A stretch of DNA of 22,352 nucleotides from a virus, in the IMG/VR virus record IMGVR_UViG_3300020190_000386, positions 1 through 22,352 of that record. One strand, 5' to 3'. The notes beneath the pieces are model-generated. The model did no database searches. It saw only the letters and a program-made list of their open reading frames with translations, and was not told the origin of the DNA. Positions within the stretch are counted from its first letter, which is position 1. Every line of letters begins with the position of its first letter. The position numbers and the translations under genes were made by a program. Below, piece after piece: positions 3,075 through 12,561 of this stretch.

Positions 3075-5165
3075 TCATTTAGCAATTTCCAAGAACTTAG
3101 AATTCAATGTTCTTGCAACTTCTTGCATGTTCTTGGGATTGATAAATTTAGCATCAAGTCCGTACATGGTATGGAATGGAGTCTTATCATAACTATATCC
3201 GGTACTGGCAATGAAATAACTAATAACATTGATACCCAATTCGCGAAATCCATTAACAACTCTGCGAGTGAATTGAACACCATTATAATGATAAGCAACG
3301 CCCGATACATCGGTTGGGTATCCATCTGAGTAATTAATAAAGATGCATTCATCACCTTTTGCATCACGTTTAATGTCTTGCTCAATGCTCTTGAATGCCA
3401 ACCCCTCCGGAGTACACCCAAATGTATCTAGATATTTAAAATAATTACGAATCTTACTCATTTTATCATGTGCCGAATCATATGCATAAACCGTAATTGC
3501 TTTTTCTTTACTACCCGTTGATGATTCGGTACCGCGCAATGAAATTTGCACACGGATGCCAGTTGTCATAGAAGCAGCTTGTGCAATTGCAACGGCTGAC
3601 ATAATGGCATTGCGAAACTTTTCACCTGCCATTGAGCCAGATGCATCAATTGAAATATGAATAAAATAATTTTTGAACTGATCCGTTACAATGCGATGAA
3701 ACACGTTAGCATTATCATAACCCAATTGGGAAATCAATCTGCGATCAATCTTACCAGCTTGCAAACGAGTGGTCTTCAAGGTACGATCTGAATTGCGAAG
3801 CTGCAACTTTCGTCCCAATGTCTTGCCTAAAATAATACCTTGCGTAATGTTTTGATCATTTTCAATAAGCGATTTAACACGATATTGATTGGATGCTACA
3901 TCGGCTGCATAATTTAACGTGCCTGCAATATAATCATTTGATCTGTTAGCAAATAAATGAGGCATTGCTGCAATGATACCTGCAGTCAATTTCTTGATAA
4001 CAATTGTATCAACAAAATCGGAAGTACCTGATTCATTTGTTGCTACTTGACGAACCTCTGTACCCGATTCGCGGATAGCATTAACGATGCTTGCCTGCGT
4101 TTTATTCAGTCTACCTGTTTTCTTGTTGTCGCCCTTAAGGAAATCTCGTTGCTTTTCAATTGCCTTTTCTAATTTCTTAAGGTCATTTGCTGACAATGAA
4201 GATCCGCTATTAATAGCACCTTTGGTTGCATCATCCGAAGCTTCGCTTTCGCCATCTTCATCGCCATCATCGCTTTCGCCATCTTCATCACCATCATCGC
4301 CTTCGCCATCACCTTGACCCGTACCACCGTCACCTTGCTGAGGGTCTCCGTCTTGCGGTTGCTCTTCATCTGATTTTTCTTCCGCTTCTGCTTCTGCTAC
4401 AGCATCCTTAACAAGCTTGTATACTTTGCATGCAACTAACAATGCATCTTCGGTAGATTGCAATCTTTGAATGTTTCGAAGATCAATCACATTCCAAATT
4501 TCTTGCAATGCAGCAAGTGCTTTCAAATTGCGGTTAGGGTTAGTTAGATTGATGATATGAAACATGTAATCCTCCCATGTCTCTTGACACTTCTCATTAG
4601 CTACCAATGCCTTATCAATAACTTTGTCATTAAAATACTTATCATACATTGCCTCATAATACATACGATAACCTGGAGCACTAGTATAGATATAAAAGTC
4701 AATGCGTCGATCTTCAATCCAATTCAATAAATCTTTGATGATCACAAAGTCTCGGTGTTGCATTGTCATGTCCGGATCAAGTCCATTCATTCGAACAATT
4801 TGTGCCATTGGCGTATTTGCCAAAATGCCACCTTTTAACATTCCAAAATCAGTCATGACAATATGCGAGCCTTCATGCAATGCTAATCCAACAGCTGGAT
4901 CGAAATTCTTATCATCAAGTTTGGTGCCAATCACAACAGACTCGCCATTGGTATAGCTTGCATCTGCGGACTGAAATACTACGGGAATCGCTTTGCCCGT
5001 TACAATGTTAACAAAATTGGCAATAGCTCGTTGCGTAGCAGCTAATTTAGTATAATCAATACCATCGCCGCGTTTGAAATCTGTGTCAAAATCATCACTC
5101 AACCAAAAGCTAGATGCTGACTTTGAATAATATCGTTTGCCATCAAATTTATCTAAAATACTCAT
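3075..5165 (-). CDS. Metallopeptidase-like / VWA-domain protein, partner of a MoxR ATPase
   Basis: This 696-residue protein has three visible parts. Residues 1-255 contain ALHEGSHIVMTDF (HExxH at 97-101) and, about 50 residues on, NWIEDRRID with Glu151. That is the layout of a zinc gluzincin-like site as in DUF2201-type N-terminal domains. Residues 258-312 are a highly acidic Asp/Glu/Gly linker with internal repeats. The C-terminal part is a von Willebrand A domain with an intact MIDAS motif DASGS (D507, S509, S511). The layout parallels CobT, CoxE and VWA partners of MoxR/CobS AAA+ ATPases, and such an ATPase is the next gene upstream. The pair probably acts as an ATP-driven metal-insertion or remodelling machine. 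Whether it is a true cobaltochelatase is doubtful, since no cobalamin gene is present. AAAGAG before ATG 5165 supports the start. Confidence 0.85.
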   Translation of the reverse strand: MSILDKFDGKRYYSKSASSFWLSDDFDTDFKRGDGIDYTKLAATQRAIANFVNIVTGKAIPVVFQSADASYTNGESVVIGTKLDDKNFDPAVGLALHEGSHIVMTDFGMLKGGILANTPMAQIVRMNGLDPDMTMQHRDFVIIKDLLNWIEDRRIDFYIYTSAPGYRMYYEAMYDKYFNDKVIDKALVANEKCQETWEDYMFHIINLTNPNRNLKALAALQEIWNVIDLRNIQRLQSTEDALLVACKVYKLVKDAVAEAEAEEKSDEEQPQDGDPQQGDGGTGQGDGEGDDGDEDGESDDGDEDGESEASDDATKGAINSGSSLSANDLKKLEKAIEKQRDFLKGDNKKTGRLNKTQASIVNAIRESGTEVRQVATNESGTSDFVDTIVIKKLTAGIIAAMPHLFANRSNDYIAGTLNYAADVASNQYRVKSLIENDQNITQGIILGKTLGRKLQLRNSDRTLKTTRLQAGKIDRRLISQLGYDNANVFHRIVTDQFKNYFIHISIDASGSMAGEKFRNAIMSAVAIAQAASMTTGIRVQISLRGTESSTGSKEKAITVYAYDSAHDKMSKIRNYFKYLDTFGCTPEGLAFKSIEQDIKRDAKGDECIFINYSDGYPTDVSGVAYHYNGVQFTRRVVNGFRELGINVISYFIASTGYSYDKTPFHTMYGLDAKFINPKNMQEVARTLNSKFLEIAK
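4244..4297 (-). repeat. 27-bp tandem repeat coding an acidic linker
   Basis: Two consecutive 27-base units differ at one position (CATCGCC versus CATCACC on the plus strand), and a third, partial and more diverged copy follows. They encode DGDEDGES-type acidic peptides in the linker of the VWA protein. The high similarity suggests recent slippage expansion, so linker length may vary between related phages. Confidence 0.8.
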
Positions 5166-5180
5166 ATACTCTTTATTTTA

Positions 5181-5195
5181 TATATAATATGAAAT
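5181..5195 (-). promoter_or_regulatory. Leader motif ATTTCATATTATATA of the VWA gene
   Basis: On the coding strand this 15-mer is identical to the one in front of the MoxR gene (6477-6491). In both cases an A-rich spacer, AAAGAG and the ATG follow. It is likely a promoter (the TATTATAT core resembles a -10) or a shared translational leader. Confidence 0.4.
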
Positions 5196-5223
5196 TACTA
5201 TTCAGTTTCCAACCAGATTGCAT

Positions 5224-5280
5224 AAAAAAAGAGACAGATCACGCTGATTAACGGGTGGTGATTTTTGCCGTAACTGTCTC
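5224..5280 (-). terminator. Rho-independent-terminator-like hairpin between moxR-like and VWA genes
   Basis: On the coding strand GAGACAG (5274-5280) pairs with CTGTCTC (5231-5237), followed by seven T (5224-5230). An inner ATCAC/GTGAT stem stacks directly on the outer stem along the 3' arm, leaving an 11-base bulge on the 5' side and a 15-base loop. It lies 20 bases past the ATPase stop. Its position would end or attenuate transcription between the ATPase and the VWA gene, which has its own leader motif. Confidence 0.7.
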
Positions 5281-5299
5281 CTTTTCGAGCTATGAAAAA

Positions 5300-6460
5300 T
5301 TAGAATGAGGTTTCTTGTCCTTCGGCATCAACCCCGGTATTAAAGATGTCTTTCATATCGGTTGCCATATGCTTTTGTATAATTTGCTTAACAAAGGTTC
5401 TTTCGGAATCCGTACCGCCCGATGCATCAAAGAAAGGAAGGATTGATACCTCAGCCGCTTCTGACAAAGAAAAGCCATCTGCCAACAATTCACATACGCG
5501 CACCGTCATACGAGTGGATACCATTGTGGTAAGTTTGCCTTCTTCCGATCTCCATTCCTTACGAGTTGCATCTGCAATATCTGCTACCGCATGAATCAAA
5601 CTGCGGTTTACGGCCGGAAATCGTTTTGTTAATAAATCTTCTTCTTGAGATAGTGACAAGATATCAACTTCAATAATTTCAAATCGATCCATCAATGCCC
5701 GATCCAATACTCGAGTGGATGTATATTCGGTACCAATGTTTGCCGTTGCAATAAATGATACGCCCGATGCAACTTTGATAGTAGGAGAATTGATATCTTC
5801 ATCCAATCGCAAATACCGTTGACCCTCATCTAATACGGTCATCAAGATATTCCAAGCTTCGGGGTGCGCACGAGACAATTCATCTAATAGAATAACTGCA
5901 TTGTCGGTTTGAATTGCCTTGACAAATGCTGATTCATCAAACGATGTTTGACCATCAACGAAATGTGTATTACCAATCAAGGTTGCTCGAGGATCTTGCG
6001 TTGCACCCAAGTTAAAATAAAAGAAAGGACGATTGGTTGCTACGGGAAGATCTTTTGCTGCTTGCGTCTTACCACAACCTGCAGGACCAACCATCATGAT
6101 ATTTTTGCCACGCACTGCCGAACGAACCAAATATTTCCATTTGATGTCGGACATTTCCAATGTTGCAGGCTTAATTTTATAAGCATTCTGAATCAAACTA
6201 AACACTGCATCTTGTTCTTGTGGCATAGGTTGTGGAGTTGATTGTGATTGTTTGATGTCTTCTAATTCAAAGCCGGACTTGTTCATTCGTTTGGCTCGGC
6301 CGGTTTCTTCATCAAACAACAGTATCTCATCATTATCAAATGCGTGCTTGATCATGATAGGGCGGAACAAATTGCTAATGTCAATGCCCGTGCCAAATTC
6401 AATAATACGTTGTTTGCCATTTACTAAGGTTGGCACACCAATAACTTTTTTGTTTTTCAT
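5300..6460 (-). CDS. MoxR/CobS-type AAA+ ATPase
   Basis: A 386-residue AAA+ ATPase. Walker A is GPAGCGKT at 125-132, Walker B is VILLDELSR at 189-197, sensor 1 is FIATAN at about 237-241, and an arginine-finger segment RALMDRF lies near 254-260. The sequence fits the AAA_5/MoxR group, which includes CobS and works with VWA-domain partners. The VWA gene follows immediately downstream. The first 100 residues are a non-ATPase extension with a small beta-rich part and a Gln/Pro stretch (71-83). CobS-like ATPases are known from cyanophages and other T4-like phages, and their role there is unproven. AAAGAG lies just before ATG 6460 and could be hidden in a leader hairpin. Confidence 0.9.
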   Translation of the reverse strand: MKNKKVIGVPTLVNGKQRIIEFGTGIDISNLFRPIMIKHAFDNDEILLFDEETGRAKRMNKSGFELEDIKQSQSTPQPMPQEQDAVFSLIQNAYKIKPATLEMSDIKWKYLVRSAVRGKNIMMVGPAGCGKTQAAKDLPVATNRPFFYFNLGATQDPRATLIGNTHFVDGQTSFDESAFVKAIQTDNAVILLDELSRAHPEAWNILMTVLDEGQRYLRLDEDINSPTIKVASGVSFIATANIGTEYTSTRVLDRALMDRFEIIEVDILSLSQEEDLLTKRFPAVNRSLIHAVADIADATRKEWRSEEGKLTTMVSTRMTVRVCELLADGFSLSEAAEVSILPFFDASGGTDSERTFVKQIIQKHMATDMKDIFNTGVDAEGQETSF

Positions 6461-7032: not shown

Positions 7033-8891
7033 AAGTATTCGTTTTTAATATTTAATTGTAATTTGGCCTCAGCTAACCATGACTCTCGACTATAACTTGA
7101 CCAATGAGTTATGGTTGGAAGTTGATTTAATATGTCTGTAACTACGCGTGCATATACAATTGGTATAACTCTTGGTATAACTCTACCATCGTAATTTGTA
7201 AAATTTGGTTCTTTTTGCTGCATAAGTGTCCATATGCTGGCAGCTAATGGGTCTCGGTCTCGGTAGTTTGCTAGTTCAACACTATGACCAGAATAAAAAT
7301 CGCTACCTGGATTTAATTCTGTAAGGCCGGTTTCTTTTGTGTCTCGAATTAATTTGGCAACTGTCATTGATATTTTGCAATTGTTTAAATATAAAACGTT
7401 GACAGTTTGAGGCAATCCAGCAAAAGATTTAACCTCACTGTTATGAATAGTTACATTAGAAGGTCCTGCTGGCAATCCTTTAAAACTTTCAATTGTGCAG
7501 TTTTTTAATTCTAATAAACCCGTAATGTTTGTCGACAATGCTTCAAAAGAATCAATATCCATGTGTCGAAGTACTAAAGTCTTTGCAATTCGTGGAAAAT
7601 TTTCAAATGATGCTGGTTGCGGAGTTATAGCAAATGTATTAACTTGTTTAAATGCAATAGGCGAATATGGTATATCTACTTTGTATATGATGTTTAGATC
7701 TGGTGCAGATACATATAATTTATCTGATTCCTGAAATATCGTTTCGCTTTTTATTTTTTCTAACAGATTGGATCCGCCTTGTACATAATGATATAAAATA
7801 TATTTTACTTCATCAGTAGTCGTAGCCAAACGCCGGTCCTTAATCATTGCAGAAATTTTTTCTTGAATCTTTGGATCTGACCAACGCGTAACGGTATCTA
7901 ACCCAGTATCACAATACAATGTATCTTTTAATTTGAATATGCCTTGTTTGTTTGGTTGTACTGCACCTAACAATCGATTAATTTCGTCTAAAAATCCAAT
8001 TGGCGGCGTACCATATACTTTTTGTTCTGCTTGATACAATACGTTGCTTGGATCTTCTAACGAAACAAACGGTTTGATTGCAACGCGTGCTACAGGATTT
8101 TTAATGTTTAAATCATCATTACGAACTAAATATGCAACCAATGTTCCAGCTTCAACATCATGTTGAACATACTGTGCATTGATTCCACTATATAAATTCA
8201 TGCAGCTTGTCCATCCACGACCTGTACTCATTCCTGCTACATCGTATCGATGTTTTGAAAATACAATGTAAAACGATTTAACTTTGTTTTCTCGATACAA
8301 TTTAACTTCTGGAATTTTGTTATATTTGTCTATAAGATCTTCGATTTGTTCGACTGCCTCATCTTTCAATTGTTTTCGAACATCTTCCATTGGACGTTGG
8401 CCCATCAACGTTTCTCGACCTTTTTCATCTTTCTCGATGTAGTTTTCAAGTTCTTTTAATTTGTGTTGAATTTTAATTTTAGTAATAATACCAGTAATCC
8501 ATTTAGACACTTTTGTTTTGCGGCCATATTCATCTGCTACCATCCCTGCAAACAGGTCGTCCCAATTAGGCATACGCGTACTGTATTCCGGTTTACCATC
8601 TATACGGTCTACCCGCGCAACTAAATCTCGCATTTCATACCAAAAGTTAGAATATTCATCACTCACATCGCTAATATCCATGCCAAATTCTTTGGTTTCA
8701 TATGGTACGCCGATGCGATCCAATCTACGTGATGATTTGGTATCCGGCAATGCTGCCAATGCACTCAACACTGCATCTTGTTGTTGTTCAATGTTTGGAT
8801 TACGTTGCATGGAAACATATTCACGTGCTTTATCTAAGGGCAGTGCTTCTTTGATCAATTGAACTTCTAAAAGTGTTTTCAATCTAATCAC
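7026..8891 (-). CDS. Large putative internal (ejected) virion protein with leucine-rich-like repeats
   Basis: This 621-residue protein begins MIRLKTLLEVQLIKEA, a putative capsid-targeting peptide with a prohead-protease-like site IKE|A after residue 15. Residues about 205-275 hold SKHRYDVAGMSTGRGWTSC and GTLVAYLV, a block I have met in large unnamed phage proteins. Residues 446-508 contain three exact 21-residue repeats starting IDSF, IESF and VKSF, each with an L-x-L-x-N-like centre, resembling leucine-rich repeats. No catalytic motif is certain, although the conserved His, Asp, Arg and Cys in the 212-230 block could form one. It shares an ATGA-type junction with the peptidase-like gene upstream. 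I infer a head-packaged effector. A host-directed enzyme with an LRR recognition domain is one model, and it is unproven. Confidence 0.65.
   Translation of the reverse strand: MIRLKTLLEVQLIKEALPLDKAREYVSMQRNPNIEQQQDAVLSALAALPDTKSSRRLDRIGVPYETKEFGMDISDVSDEYSNFWYEMRDLVARVDRIDGKPEYSTRMPNWDDLFAGMVADEYGRKTKVSKWITGIITKIKIQHKLKELENYIEKDEKGRETLMGQRPMEDVRKQLKDEAVEQIEDLIDKYNKIPEVKLYRENKVKSFYIVFSKHRYDVAGMSTGRGWTSCMNLYSGINAQYVQHDVEAGTLVAYLVRNDDLNIKNPVARVAIKPFVSLEDPSNVLYQAEQKVYGTPPIGFLDEINRLLGAVQPNKQGIFKLKDTLYCDTGLDTVTRWSDPKIQEKISAMIKDRRLATTTDEVKYILYHYVQGGSNLLEKIKSETIFQESDKLYVSAPDLNIIYKVDIPYSPIAFKQVNTFAITPQPASFENFPRIAKTLVLRHMDIDSFEALSTNITGLLELKNCTIESFKGLPAGPSNVTIHNSEVKSFAGLPQTVNVLYLNNCKISMTVAKLIRDTKETGLTELNPGSDFYSGHSVELANYRDRDPLAASIWTLMQQKEPNFTNYDGRVIPRVIPIVYARVVTDILNQLPTITHWSSYSRESWLAEAKLQLNIKNEYLR
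7368..7556 (-). repeat. Three 21-residue LRR-like repeats
   Basis: Protein repeats at residues 446-466, 467-487 and 488-508 of the 621-residue protein share the pattern [IV]-x-S-F-x-[AG]-L-[SP], followed by a hydrophobic strand and N-x. Each unit is 63 bases. The bases are diverged, so this is an old duplication kept at protein level. Confidence 0.7.
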
Positions 8892-9640
8892 TATAACTCC
8901 TGCCGGATTGCTAATTTAGGAAGATATGATCTCCAAGTAGTTAATATGTTTTCTTTTTCTTGTGGCGTGATTGTTTCATTTTCTACCCACATAGATAAAT
9001 ATTCGTCAACTATCGTTTTAAATGGCCGTTTGCTTTTCTTTGCCTTGAAATACAAACCTTGAAGCATCGCTGGTATTTCTTTTGGCAGTGTAAAATAACG
9101 TGCTGCAGTCAATTTGCCCGATTCAATTTTATTTCTAAGTGCTGCATCTGATGAAATGTATTTGCCATCAATTGTATTCCACCCGCTTTGAGTAACATGT
9201 TCGATTTCATGCCGCAATGTGTCTCGAAGATTCATTGCAATGTCACTAAGTGTCCTAGGATATTCTGTAGGATCTAATTCAAATCGTATTTCAATTAATG
9301 GCGGTGTTTCGGCATCTCGTTTAGAATCATTGTATGCATCGCCCCCATATTTAAGATCATTTAACCCGTCAATCCATTGCACTTTGAGTTGCAAATAAAA
9401 CTCTACCGGGATGGTTGCGTTTTCTATTTCATCAAAATATATTTTGGGCTGAGTTTCATCATCTTCAATGTGAGGTACCGTTTCTCCTTGCTTGTAAAAG
9501 ATCTTTACACTACCATATCGACCTGCAGGATCGGATACTGCTGAGTAACTGTCTTTGATTATGCCAAGCAATTTATTTGATAATGTGGTTACTAAAGAAT
9601 CATATCGGCCTTCTAAAAATAATTGCTTCATAGATATCAT
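8891..9640 (-). CDS. HExxH metallopeptidase-like protein with head-targeting N-terminus
   Basis: This 249-residue protein begins MISMKQLFLEG, matching the shared N-terminal signal of the cluster. The centre has NLRDTLRHEIEHVTQSG with HEIEH at 144-148, the canonical zinc-protease helix. Downstream, LPKEIPAMLQGLYFKAKKSK provides Glu residues that could be the third zinc ligand. Similar short HExxH proteins occur in T4-like marine phages without a tested substrate. I infer a packaged protease that acts during head maturation or after entry. The ATGA overlap with the upstream gene supports ATG 9640. The downstream gene overlaps by a single base. Confidence 0.75.
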   Translation of the reverse strand: MISMKQLFLEGRYDSLVTTLSNKLLGIIKDSYSAVSDPAGRYGSVKIFYKQGETVPHIEDDETQPKIYFDEIENATIPVEFYLQLKVQWIDGLNDLKYGGDAYNDSKRDAETPPLIEIRFELDPTEYPRTLSDIAMNLRDTLRHEIEHVTQSGWNTIDGKYISSDAALRNKIESGKLTAARYFTLPKEIPAMLQGLYFKAKKSKRPFKTIVDEYLSMWVENETITPQEKENILTTWRSYLPKLAIRQEL

Positions 9641-10950
9641 ATTAATACTTCATATTTAATTATTGATTCAGGCGTTAATGATCTAGTACGCTTTACTTGT
9701 CCTTTTAAATCTTCTATCTGTCTAACCGTTTTATTAATTACTTGTTTATATGCCGCTGGATTTTGTTGCTTAAATGTATTAAAAAATCCTTGAATTGTGT
9801 TAAGTTCGGGATTTCTAAGAATACTCATTGGATCTTTAAATTGAAGTAATTTTTTATAACTGCTAACACTTCCTAATATTTCCAATGAATTTGAAGATAA
9901 AGGTACAAGATAATGTTGGCTAGTTGCAAACCATTGCGCAATTTCATCCAATGCTTTGATAGTTTTCTGTTTACCAATTCGTTTAACGATTGTTTCCGTA
10001 TTCGTTGTTATTATTTTTTGAATAGGTGCAAGTTGTGCTACTATTTCTATATCATGAAAAAAGTAATTTTTAAGCCAATTTCTTCCAGATTTTTTAGATA
10101 ATGAATATTCTGCATTTGGTATGTATGGTGCATGCGGATCATATGTGTTTTTACTTTTAGGATTTGTAATCGTATGCGTTTTTAAAGAAAATGTTATCCT
10201 AGGATCTTTTGCGTGAGTAATTTCATGAGTAATTACATTTTTAATATAGTTACTTTGTGCGTCAGCGCTACCTTTAAAGTTAGATAATAATATGTAATCT
10301 TGAACTAGATATATACTTTGATCGTCATTCGATGCCCATCCTGCTGACCCCTTCGGTATATCAGGATAAAGTTGTTTAGCAACATCTCTTGTTACTACAT
10401 GTACTTCAACTTTAGTTCCTTGCGGTAAAAATGGATTACCGACATATTTTTGATAGTTCTGGCCAGTTTTAGATTTAAATTTCTGTACTTGCTTCCAAGT
10501 CGTAGACCAATCCTTTTTAAGTTTTAAAAACTTATCTGATGAAAATGTATGATGTTGGCCTGTCTGACTAACCTTGCCGTTTGCTATAGTTTTTATAATT
10601 TCATTAGTTATTCGATCTATTTCTTTTAATTCTTGAGCTGCAAATGGAATTCCTTCTTTAATTTTAAATTCTAAACTAGCAGCTGTTGCAGTTGTATCTA
10701 ATTGCTTGCTTAAATTTTGTTCTAATTTTGTGGCCGTAAGTTTACGTTGTTTTATATCACGAAGATATTGAACCCGTTGTTCTTTTGAAAGCAGATTCCA
10801 ATATTCATATACTTCCGGATTCGTTCTTTCCCAATTTGCAAGTTGTTTTAACTCTGATACATATGATAAATCTCGAGCAACATATCGACCAGTTTTTAAC
10901 TTTTTTCCGTTAGAAAATAACTGAATTAATCGTTGTATGAGACGTTTCAT
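9637..10950 (-). CDS. Second HExxH metallopeptidase-like protein (437 aa)
   Basis: The zinc motif VITHEITHAKDPR has HEITH at residues 242-246. Just before it, SAGWASNDDQSIYLVQDY looks like the beta strand lining such an active site. The N-terminus, MKRLIQRLIQLFSNGKK, is amphipathic and basic but lacks the L-x-E end of the neighbours' signal. The first 170 residues are helix- and Lys/Gln-rich, possibly coiled coil. The start at ATG 10950 is chosen because AAGGA lies 7 bases upstream (10957-10961); a TTG at 10956 in frame is less likely. The gene follows a 49-base gap holding the ATATTTATA motif. Function is inferred from the motif only. It lies beside another HExxH protein, so the two may act together. 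Confidence 0.7.
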   Translation of the reverse strand: MKRLIQRLIQLFSNGKKLKTGRYVARDLSYVSELKQLANWERTNPEVYEYWNLLSKEQRVQYLRDIKQRKLTATKLEQNLSKQLDTTATAASLEFKIKEGIPFAAQELKEIDRITNEIIKTIANGKVSQTGQHHTFSSDKFLKLKKDWSTTWKQVQKFKSKTGQNYQKYVGNPFLPQGTKVEVHVVTRDVAKQLYPDIPKGSAGWASNDDQSIYLVQDYILLSNFKGSADAQSNYIKNVITHEITHAKDPRITFSLKTHTITNPKSKNTYDPHAPYIPNAEYSLSKKSGRNWLKNYFFHDIEIVAQLAPIQKIITTNTETIVKRIGKQKTIKALDEIAQWFATSQHYLVPLSSNSLEILGSVSSYKKLLQFKDPMSILRNPELNTIQGFFNTFKQQNPAAYKQVINKTVRQIEDLKGQVKRTRSLTPESIIKYEVLI

Positions 10951-10979
10951 TGACAATCCTTAATTAAACTGGTATTTGA

Positions 10980-10999: not shown

Positions 11000-11554
11000 T
11001 TATTCAAGTAAATTGTAATTCCAATAACGTTCTTTGTCTTCATTAAATGGATTACCTGATTGTTGATAAAAACAATTCATACAAAGCATTTGAAGATTTT
11101 CTATGCAATGATTTGTTTCATCTCCATCAATGTGGTCTAAAAGTAAAGGAACGGTATCATCAGTTATTCTGCGTTCTGCATAACCACAGGAATTGCATTG
11201 TTCTGGAAGTATTGCCAATGCCAACAATCTATTGCGTAGCTTCCAGGTAGGATAGTTAGGATGCTTACCTGTCAAGATATTATCAATTGAATATATACCC
11301 TTATTGGCTTTGCAAACGTCTTTTGGTATGCCTACCCCAAATTGATTTTTATGTAGCTCATACAATGTCTTTCCGGTATCTCGATCCACGTACATTCGAG
11401 CATACTTTTTATAAGTAGTAAATGATATTTTGAGAAAGCGAGCAGCTTCGGCATTAGATTTAGTATTTTCCATTGCATAGCGTATTTCGCTTTCTGGAAT
11501 ATCCAATGCCGTCTTGCCAATACCGTAAACGTATTTGTATTGTTTTTCTTCCAT
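11000..11554 (-). CDS. HNH endonuclease with N-terminal helix-turn-helix
   Basis: This 184-residue protein has a helix-turn-helix segment with SEIRYAMENTKSNAEAARFL and KISFTTYKKYARM (about 22-52), then a spacer. The HNH fold carries zinc Cys pairs CNSC (120, 123) and CMNC (158, 161) around LLLDHIDGDETNHCIENL with catalytic His141 and Asn. The last H of the classical motif is Phe after NC, and similar substitutions (often Tyr) occur in phage relatives I recall. Such proteins cut DNA and behave as free-standing homing or packaging-related nucleases. The ATG 11554 start overlaps the previous TAA by one base. A longer in-frame start at 11617 would overlap that gene much more and lacks support. 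Confidence 0.87.
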   Translation of the reverse strand: MEEKQYKYVYGIGKTALDIPESEIRYAMENTKSNAEAARFLKISFTTYKKYARMYVDRDTGKTLYELHKNQFGVGIPKDVCKANKGIYSIDNILTGKHPNYPTWKLRNRLLALAILPEQCNSCGYAERRITDDTVPLLLDHIDGDETNHCIENLQMLCMNCFYQQSGNPFNEDKERYWNYNLLE

Positions 11555-11940
11555 TAATACAATCCGTGCTTCCTTAGTGTGGTAACTGCATCTTTTGGAA
11601 ATGTTTTTGTTTCCCACATTTCTTTAACTATATCTTGCAATTTAACTACTTTTGCTGTAAAAAATGTAGGATGAACTTTTGAAAGTTGTTTAACTTCTGC
11701 AATCCAATATGAATATACCGGATATTTTTCATCAAACCGATCTTTATCTGTACGATTTTCCCAATATTCAATTTGATCTTGCAATGGCCACATATGGATC
11801 GGAATGTTTGGATCTTTACGTATACCAGATAATACCGGCATATTTTCATTTCGTTTCAAGTTTTTAGTAATAAACTTGTCCATAAGTATTGCAGAACGAT
11901 CTTTTGGAGACATTCCGGTGTGTGCTGATTTTTTACCCAT
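11554..11940 (-). CDS. Hypothetical protein (128 aa)
   Basis: A basic, soluble protein with a disordered Lys-rich start (MGKKSAHTGMSPKDRS) and an aromatic central region (HMWPLQDQIEYWENRTDKDRF). A helical C-terminus follows. I recognise no family. Its ATG overlaps the upstream small gene by 8 bases and its TAA overlaps the HNH gene start by one base, so it is part of the ClpS operon and probably translationally coupled. Confidence 0.65.
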   Translation of the reverse strand: MGKKSAHTGMSPKDRSAILMDKFITKNLKRNENMPVLSGIRKDPNIPIHMWPLQDQIEYWENRTDKDRFDEKYPVYSYWIAEVKQLSKVHPTFFTAKVVKLQDIVKEMWETKTFPKDAVTTLRKHGLY

Positions 11941-12130
11941 TTTGTTTTTGTTTTTCTGTTAATATAACTATTTTGCGCCATGCATCTTCTGCACGGTATG
12001 CATATGTTTTAAACTTAATGATATCAAGTTTTTTTCGAGCTGCTTCCATACGGCGCATGTTTCGATGATACGTTGCATGCAACATTGCAATGCGGAAACG
12101 AATAATGTAATTACGAATTTTTCTTATCAT
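11933..12130 (-). CDS. Small, very basic helical protein (65 aa)
   Basis: Arg/Lys-rich and predicted to be almost all helix by composition (RKIRNYIIRFRIAMLHATYH...MRRMEAARKKLD). Two amphipathic helices seem likely. It overlaps clpS by 20 bases upstream and the 128-residue gene by 8 bases downstream. The function is unknown. Binding of nucleic acid or of a host complex is possible from charge only. Confidence 0.6.
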   Translation of the reverse strand: MIRKIRNYIIRFRIAMLHATYHRNMRRMEAARKKLDIIKFKTYAYRAEDAWRKIVILTEKQKQNG

Positions 12131-12389
12131 GTTTTTCTAGTGTTGCAGTTAAATTGCATTTAATAAAATATTCATATACGGCTTCGCATGCATCATGAGT
12201 ATCTATAAATACTGCACAACGGCCTACGTTATGCACAATTAATGCACATTGATGTGCTTGAAGTTCGTTATGATCGCACGCATCCATAATGCATCCTATT
12301 ACATGATCAAACGTATTGCGATTATCGTTGTGTAATACAACTTGATGCTTGCCTCGTTTAGAAGATTTCTTCAACACTTGCTTTGACAT
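12111..12389 (-). CDS. clpS: ClpS-like N-degron adaptor, Bacteroidetes type
   Basis: ClpS binds proteins with destabilising N-terminal residues and hands them to the Clp AAA+ unfoldase for degradation by ClpP. From MSKQVLKKSSKRGK the core runs QVVLHNDNRNTFDHVI through QAHQCALIVHNVGRCAVF to LTATLEK, the full alpha/beta ClpS fold in about 92 residues. The N-degron pocket Asn21, Asp22 and His53 keep the E. coli N34, D35 and H66 pattern with identical spacing. The third pocket-loop Asp is Asn23, and the gate residue is Phe27 as in Bacteroidetes ClpS rather than Met. The start is uncertain: in-frame ATGs at 12413 and 12449 are possible, but 12389 gives the family's usual N-terminus and the least overlap. 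No good ribosome-binding site is seen. Confidence 0.9.
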   Translation of the reverse strand: MSKQVLKKSSKRGKHQVVLHNDNRNTFDHVIGCIMDACDHNELQAHQCALIVHNVGRCAVFIDTHDACEAVYEYFIKCNLTATLEKHDKKNS

Positions 12390-12561
12390 CGCGTATAATT
12401 GCACATTGTTCATATAATTCTCGATCCGTAGCATATCGCAGCGATTCATTCAAAAAATGCAATCTGCGTTCTTTACTCCATTGTTCTGGCCACTCCCAAT
12501 CGTTAGTTGCCATGGTGTTAATCGAATCAATAAATAATTGTTCTATAAAGTTTTGATTCAT
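12358..12561 (-). CDS. Small protein with UVR-like motif (67 aa)
   Basis: Residues about 38-62 (NESLRYATDRELYEQCAIIRDV) resemble the UVR motif of UvrB/UvrC, ClpC and McsA (a helical hairpin with a Y-E-x-[AC]-A-x-[IL]-R-D core). The N-terminal half is acidic with W-E-W. The gene starts the operon leading into clpS, which it overlaps by 32 bases. UVR motifs mediate protein contacts in both the excision-repair and the Clp protease systems. The clpS neighbour makes the Clp link attractive, but the motif match is short and by eye. Confidence 0.6.
   Translation of the reverse strand: MNQNFIEQLFIDSINTMATNDWEWPEQWSKERRLHFLNESLRYATDRELYEQCAIIRDVKASVEEIF

Follow-up and report, generated by a model that had tools for sequence, protein, structure and literature searches.

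A phage-encoded ClpS with a predicted change in its alpha-amino-binding site and a UVR-like neighbour

ClpS is a small host protein that delivers selected proteins for Clp proteolysis. A gene for a protein of this type lies in a 22,352-base virus fragment from IMG/VR, which is referred to here, over its whole length, as the window. Through such a protein, a phage may steer the destruction of host proteins, or it may block it.

Identity of clpS and its conserved neighbours

The clpS gene begins with an ATG start codon and encodes 92 amino acid residues; its coordinates (Table 1) include the stop codon. The protein consists of a basic N-terminal extension of 14 residues (MSKQVLKKSSKRGK), a core formed by residues 15-86, and a basic tail. 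It matches the Pfam ClpS profile PF02617 with 55.2 bits (E=6e-15; the curated cut-off is 23 bits), and also PHROG 27368, which is annotated as an ATP-dependent protease. The core of the AlphaFold (AF2) model has a pLDDT of about 97. When this model was compared with the PDB using Foldseek, all 38 matches at E<=0.001 were ClpS, and the model differs from ClpS structures by an rmsd of 0.8-2.0 A. The C-terminal domain of L7/L12 was considered as a look-alike and was ruled out by the sequence profile and by a far weaker fold match.

The original prediction had named a ClpS adaptor at this position, lying among tiny phage genes and having Asn21, Asp22, and His53 as key pocket residues. Translation and alignment agree with the coordinates and the residue numbers, and the flanking genes are small open reading frames of a phage contig. 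The identity as ClpS is borne out by profile, fold, and tree, including the structure prediction, on which it could have failed.

Close relatives of the protein occur at 14 IMG/VR loci, and a profile extends the set to 119 viral relatives. The gene evolves under purifying selection, with a median pairwise dN/dS of about 0.2 among close relatives.

Table 1. Positions of clpS, of its pocket codons, and of the neighbouring genes in the window
Feature	Positions	Strand	Basis or remark
clpS, 92-aa ClpS-type adaptor	12111..12389	-	Pfam ClpS, Foldseek, dN/dS
Pocket-loop codons N21-D22-N23	12321..12329	-	Translation, alignment
H53 codon	12231..12233	-	Equivalent by alignment to His66 in E. coli and His79 in Caulobacter
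UVR-like 67-aa three-helix protein	12358..12561	-	Overlaps clpS start by 32 nt
65-aa basic protein	11933..12130	-	Overlaps clpS end; conserved block, 47/47 loci
128-aa protein	11554..11940	-	Conserved block, 47/47 loci; independent anchor
HNH endonuclease-like protein	11000..11617	-	PHROG HNH, E=3e-15; conserved block, 47/47 loci; independent anchor

The gene is always found behind the gene for the 67-residue protein, within a conserved block of five genes. A scan with an alignment of the 67-residue protein found 65 viral loci, and clpS lies downstream in all 63 that have room for it. When the HNH and 128-residue genes were used as anchors instead, 125 loci were found (many from the same contigs), and all 125 have both clpS and the UVR-like gene. 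Because these anchors are independent of finding ClpS, the result shows the two genes to be core genes of the lineage. It adds two things to the original prediction: the overlapping UVR-like gene, and the place of the pair among the core genes. That the two genes are perfectly linked was rejected as strong evidence of joint function. Since the HNH, 65-residue, and 128-residue genes downstream are linked equally well, linkage singles out no functional pair.

The 67-residue protein resembles the UVR domain in the pattern L-x3-L-x2-A ... YEQCAIIRD. Its alignment to UVR with hhalign has a probability of 62.5% and a score of 24.8, compared with at most 16.5 in 300 column shuffles and 19.1 for the reversed profile. 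The Pfam UVR profile (PF02151) gave no match above its curated cut-off for the protein or seven relatives, and distant members of the family lose the RD residues. Its AF2 model (pLDDT 92) has helices at residues 5-17, 30-46, and 50-65. A fold search with this model returned nothing significant; McsA ranked second with E=1.7. The protein has a dN/dS of 0.15. Its resemblance to UVR is suggestive, and is better taken as a lead than as membership of that family.

Lineage, host, and origin of the gene

The nearest long relative of the window is a contig of 159.6 kb. It encodes a Gp23 capsid protein (E=1e-73) together with a prohead protease of the S77 type (E=3e-34). Both are also present in a relative of 130.6 kb. 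Judging from these sister contigs, the lineage is a T4-like myovirus; the window, at 22 kb, stops short of the two genes. Among named phages, the capsid protein of the 159.6-kb contig comes closest to that of Flavobacterium phage immuto (57.7% identity), followed by Microcystis phage Mel-JY01 (55.4%). In immuto, no ClpS was found near the HNH gene or in collection-wide protein searches.

In the window, five genes on the minus strand between 12597 and 15582 (starts 13358, 13759, 14109, 15166, and 15582) carry the pattern L-x-x-[LI]-[LIFM]-x-E within their first 20 residues. When internal segments were drawn at random 2000 times, this never occurred. A sixth gene on the same strand (8891-9640, start 9640) fits a looser version. 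The pattern looks like a capsid-targeting sequence of the T4 type with a site for the prohead protease, and the relatives have an S77 protease.

A ClpS tree built from 74 columns places the 15 sequences of the window clade in one group (support 99) inside the Bacteroidota ClpS, nested among the Flavobacteriales and adjoining the Flavobacteriales/Crocinitomicaceae. This phylogeny against cellular ClpS agrees with the Bacteroidetes-type sequence noted originally. Because the tree has a long stem and leaves many of its forks unresolved, it does not pin down the host family. Other phage ClpS proteins fall elsewhere, and the supported branches force at least three changes of label.

Neither ClpP, Clp_N, nor Aat was found in window-clade contigs of up to 159.6 kb, although these contigs are fragmentary and absence from them is not proof. 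With no phage-encoded partner found in these contigs, the phage ClpS would need a Clp ATPase of the host. Genomes that encode the closest cellular ClpS mostly have Clp_N (12 of 14), and half of them have Aat (7 of 14); in two of the 14, a UVR motif lies within the same ClpC-like open reading frame as Clp_N.

Substrate pocket and remodelled surface

In Caulobacter ClpS, the alpha-amino group of the substrate is held by Asn47, Asp49, and His79, while the side-chain pocket is made of other residues (PMC12493166). These three align with N21, N23, and H53 of the window protein. Asn23, which had been pointed out before as replacing a pocket-loop Asp and is confirmed by the alignment, is therefore a change at one of the three positions that hold the alpha-amino group. 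The hydrophobic pocket is conserved in the alignment (F27, V30, A49, and L80). The description of the binding pocket as intact is thus right for its hydrophobic part, and does not hold for the alpha-amino site, which is altered both here and across the lineage.

Position 23 is Asp in 73 of 77 cellular Bacteroidota sequences and in 33 of 34 other viral sequences, but in none of the first set of 15 sequences from the window clade. Of the 73 distinct sequences from the phage lineage, only 13 combine the canonical N, D, and H, compared with 73/77 in bacteria. Variants among the 73 include D at position 21; N, S, T, P, Q, E, or K at position 23; and D at position 53. Fisher's test gives an extreme raw value of 7e-24, but for sequences that are related to each other. 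By parsimony, 10 changes of the triad are needed on a tree that was built without the triad columns and is weakly resolved. Both F27 and V30 are present in 67/73 sequences. As far as alignment can tell, the alpha-amino-binding site has been altered repeatedly in the lineage while the hydrophobic pocket has stayed.

Some relatives of the window protein (L231-L247, L257, and L279) have Asp in place of the pocket His. The same replacement has been reported for Leptospira ClpS1 (PMC12493166).

Loss of the second loop Asp was rejected as proof that N-degron binding is lost. Arabidopsis ClpS1 carries an identical H-N-D-N loop, and its structure was solved with a peptide (7d34), so Asn23 alone does not abolish binding.

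Differences are also found outside the pocket. The N-terminal extension has 12-14 residues and a median charge of about +6 in the phage lineage, compared with cellular medians of 20 residues and -3. It is this part of ClpS that the pore loops of E. coli ClpA engage during delivery (PMC9663308). Residues 54-72 form a remodelled face in the alignment, and the changes fixed in the clade include F61, D63, C68, H46, and N54. E79 and K84 of E. coli ClpS, which contact ClpA (PMC12493166), align with T64 and E69 of the window protein. Since Bacteroidota ClpS mostly lack these two residues as well, their absence says little about docking to a Bacteroidota ClpC.

Possible roles and known systems

One model for the role of the protein is that of a substrate adaptor. 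A T4-like phage lineage may have acquired clpS from Bacteroidota hosts similar to Flavobacteriales and kept it as a core gene. The phage ClpS would most likely dock on the N-domain of host ClpC or ClpA, and would bring chosen proteins, probably with bulky hydrophobic N-termini, to host ClpCP. Its requirements for the N-terminus of a substrate are perhaps altered, and the UVR-like protein may cooperate with it in the way that plant ClpF does with ClpS1. The chances that phage ClpS acts as such an adaptor on host ClpC or ClpA, maybe together with the UVR-like protein, are about even. The Pfam match and the fold, the retention of F27 and V30, purifying selection, and the nesting within Bacteroidota ClpS argue for it. 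So do phage contigs in which no Clp parts were found, set beside bacterial genomes that have Clp_N, and the constant presence of the UVR-like gene. Against it stand T64 and E69 at the ClpA-contact sites, the non-canonical alpha-amino site, and the short basic extension; moreover, adjacency that belongs to a wider conserved block is weak evidence of joint function. In plants, the UVR and N-terminal domains of ClpF and the core of ClpS1 are important in the interaction with ClpC1 (PMC7966870). The bolder proposal, in which the UVR-like protein and a retuned ClpS form a two-part core adaptor that re-targets host ClpC under changed N-degron rules, as a viral counterpart of ClpF-ClpS1, is rather doubtful.

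The short, basic extension, unlike that of cellular ClpS, and the altered alpha-amino site could also belong to an inhibitor. Such a protein would occupy the N-domain of host ClpC, displace host ClpS, and block delivery, including that of ssrA-tagged or N-degron phage proteins, while delivering nothing itself. There is precedent in E. coli and Leptospira, where ClpS inhibits degradation of ssrA substrates, and Leptospira ClpS also inhibits the ATPase activity of ClpA (PMC9663308, PMC12493166). However, a pure blocker would have no need of the conserved hydrophobic substrate pocket, and this alternative is possible but somewhat unlikely. It is improbable that the ClpS fold no longer serves Clp at all and binds, for example, some other N-terminus or an internal motif. 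The rarity of the canonical triad and the remodelled face around residues 54-72 would fit such a change of use, but the Phe/Val pocket and the fold are kept under purifying selection, and plant ClpS1, crystallised with a peptide, shares the N-D-N loop. Least probable is a copy of host ClpS that simply does the job of host ClpS, namely quality control, during infection. The shared fold, the hydrophobic pocket, and the host-type origin agree with this, whereas the changes fixed in the clade and the repeated changes at the alpha-amino site do not. Delivery of substrates to the host protease is the preferred reading.

The closest cellular proteins are the ClpS of Flavobacteriales, which share the fold and the NTFDHVI/QCA/H pocket framework, lie closest in the tree, and are up to about 49% identical over most of the core. 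The phage protein differs in the lost second loop Asp, the short and basic N-terminal extension, the remodelled region 54-72, and the basic C-terminal tail.

Phage-encoded ClpS is already known. It is found in jumbo phages such as PA5oct, Atu_ph07, MIJ3, Phosso, and others, which have larger genomes and sequences of the Proteobacterial type. The second loop Asp is likewise absent, independently, from ClpS of PA5oct (N-D-N) and Atu_ph07 (D-D-Q). The ClpS of Atu_ph07 was annotated in 2018, and ClpA, ClpX, and ClpP-like proteins of its own were reported (PMC6102473). Iyer et al. 2021 proposed that phage ClpS feeds targets to host ClpAP (PMC7824862). Among INPHARED records, 20 match E. coli ClpS, two of which are probably bacterial DNA. 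These two are assigned to Acinetobacter phage MD-2021a (CAKLQF020000008 and CAKLQH020000043) and were rejected as phage ClpS; in CAKLQF020000008, clpS is flanked by argC and clpA.

ClpS of the Bacteroidota type also occurs in two uncultured huge phages of 630-640 kb, LR756502 and LR756504. Unlike the window protein, it has a canonical N-D-D loop there, and each phage has three ClpP-like proteins as well as UVR proteins; no Clp_N domain was found in either. In the binary adaptor of plants, ClpS1, whose loop also reads N-D-N, is paired with ClpF, a ClpC-binding protein that bears a UVR domain (PMC7966870). The phage partner, whose UVR identity is suggestive only, has 67 residues and lacks the YccV domain.

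As far as the searches went, a T4-like Bacteroidota lineage with clpS as a core gene, an altered alpha-amino site, and a UVR-like neighbour is new. No test of the suspected role of phage ClpS in hijacking host proteolysis was seen in the papers found. The lineage offers at least 73 sequences as a natural panel that varies at the alpha-amino recognition site while the remaining pocket stays constant. Together with the candidate co-adaptor and the cultured relative immuto, for which the searches gave no ClpS, this panel makes it possible to test directly whether phages redirect the N-degron pathway or block it.

Elsewhere in the window, a phage GroEL is encoded at 1367-2977 (PHROG, 590.8 bits), and is also found in seven related contigs of the lineage. 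A MoxR-type AAA ATPase adjoins a CobT/vWA-like protein at 3075-6460. Finally, the genes at 8891-9640 and 9637-10956 encode HExxH motifs (HEIEH and HEITH), and their products may be zincin-like metallopeptidases.
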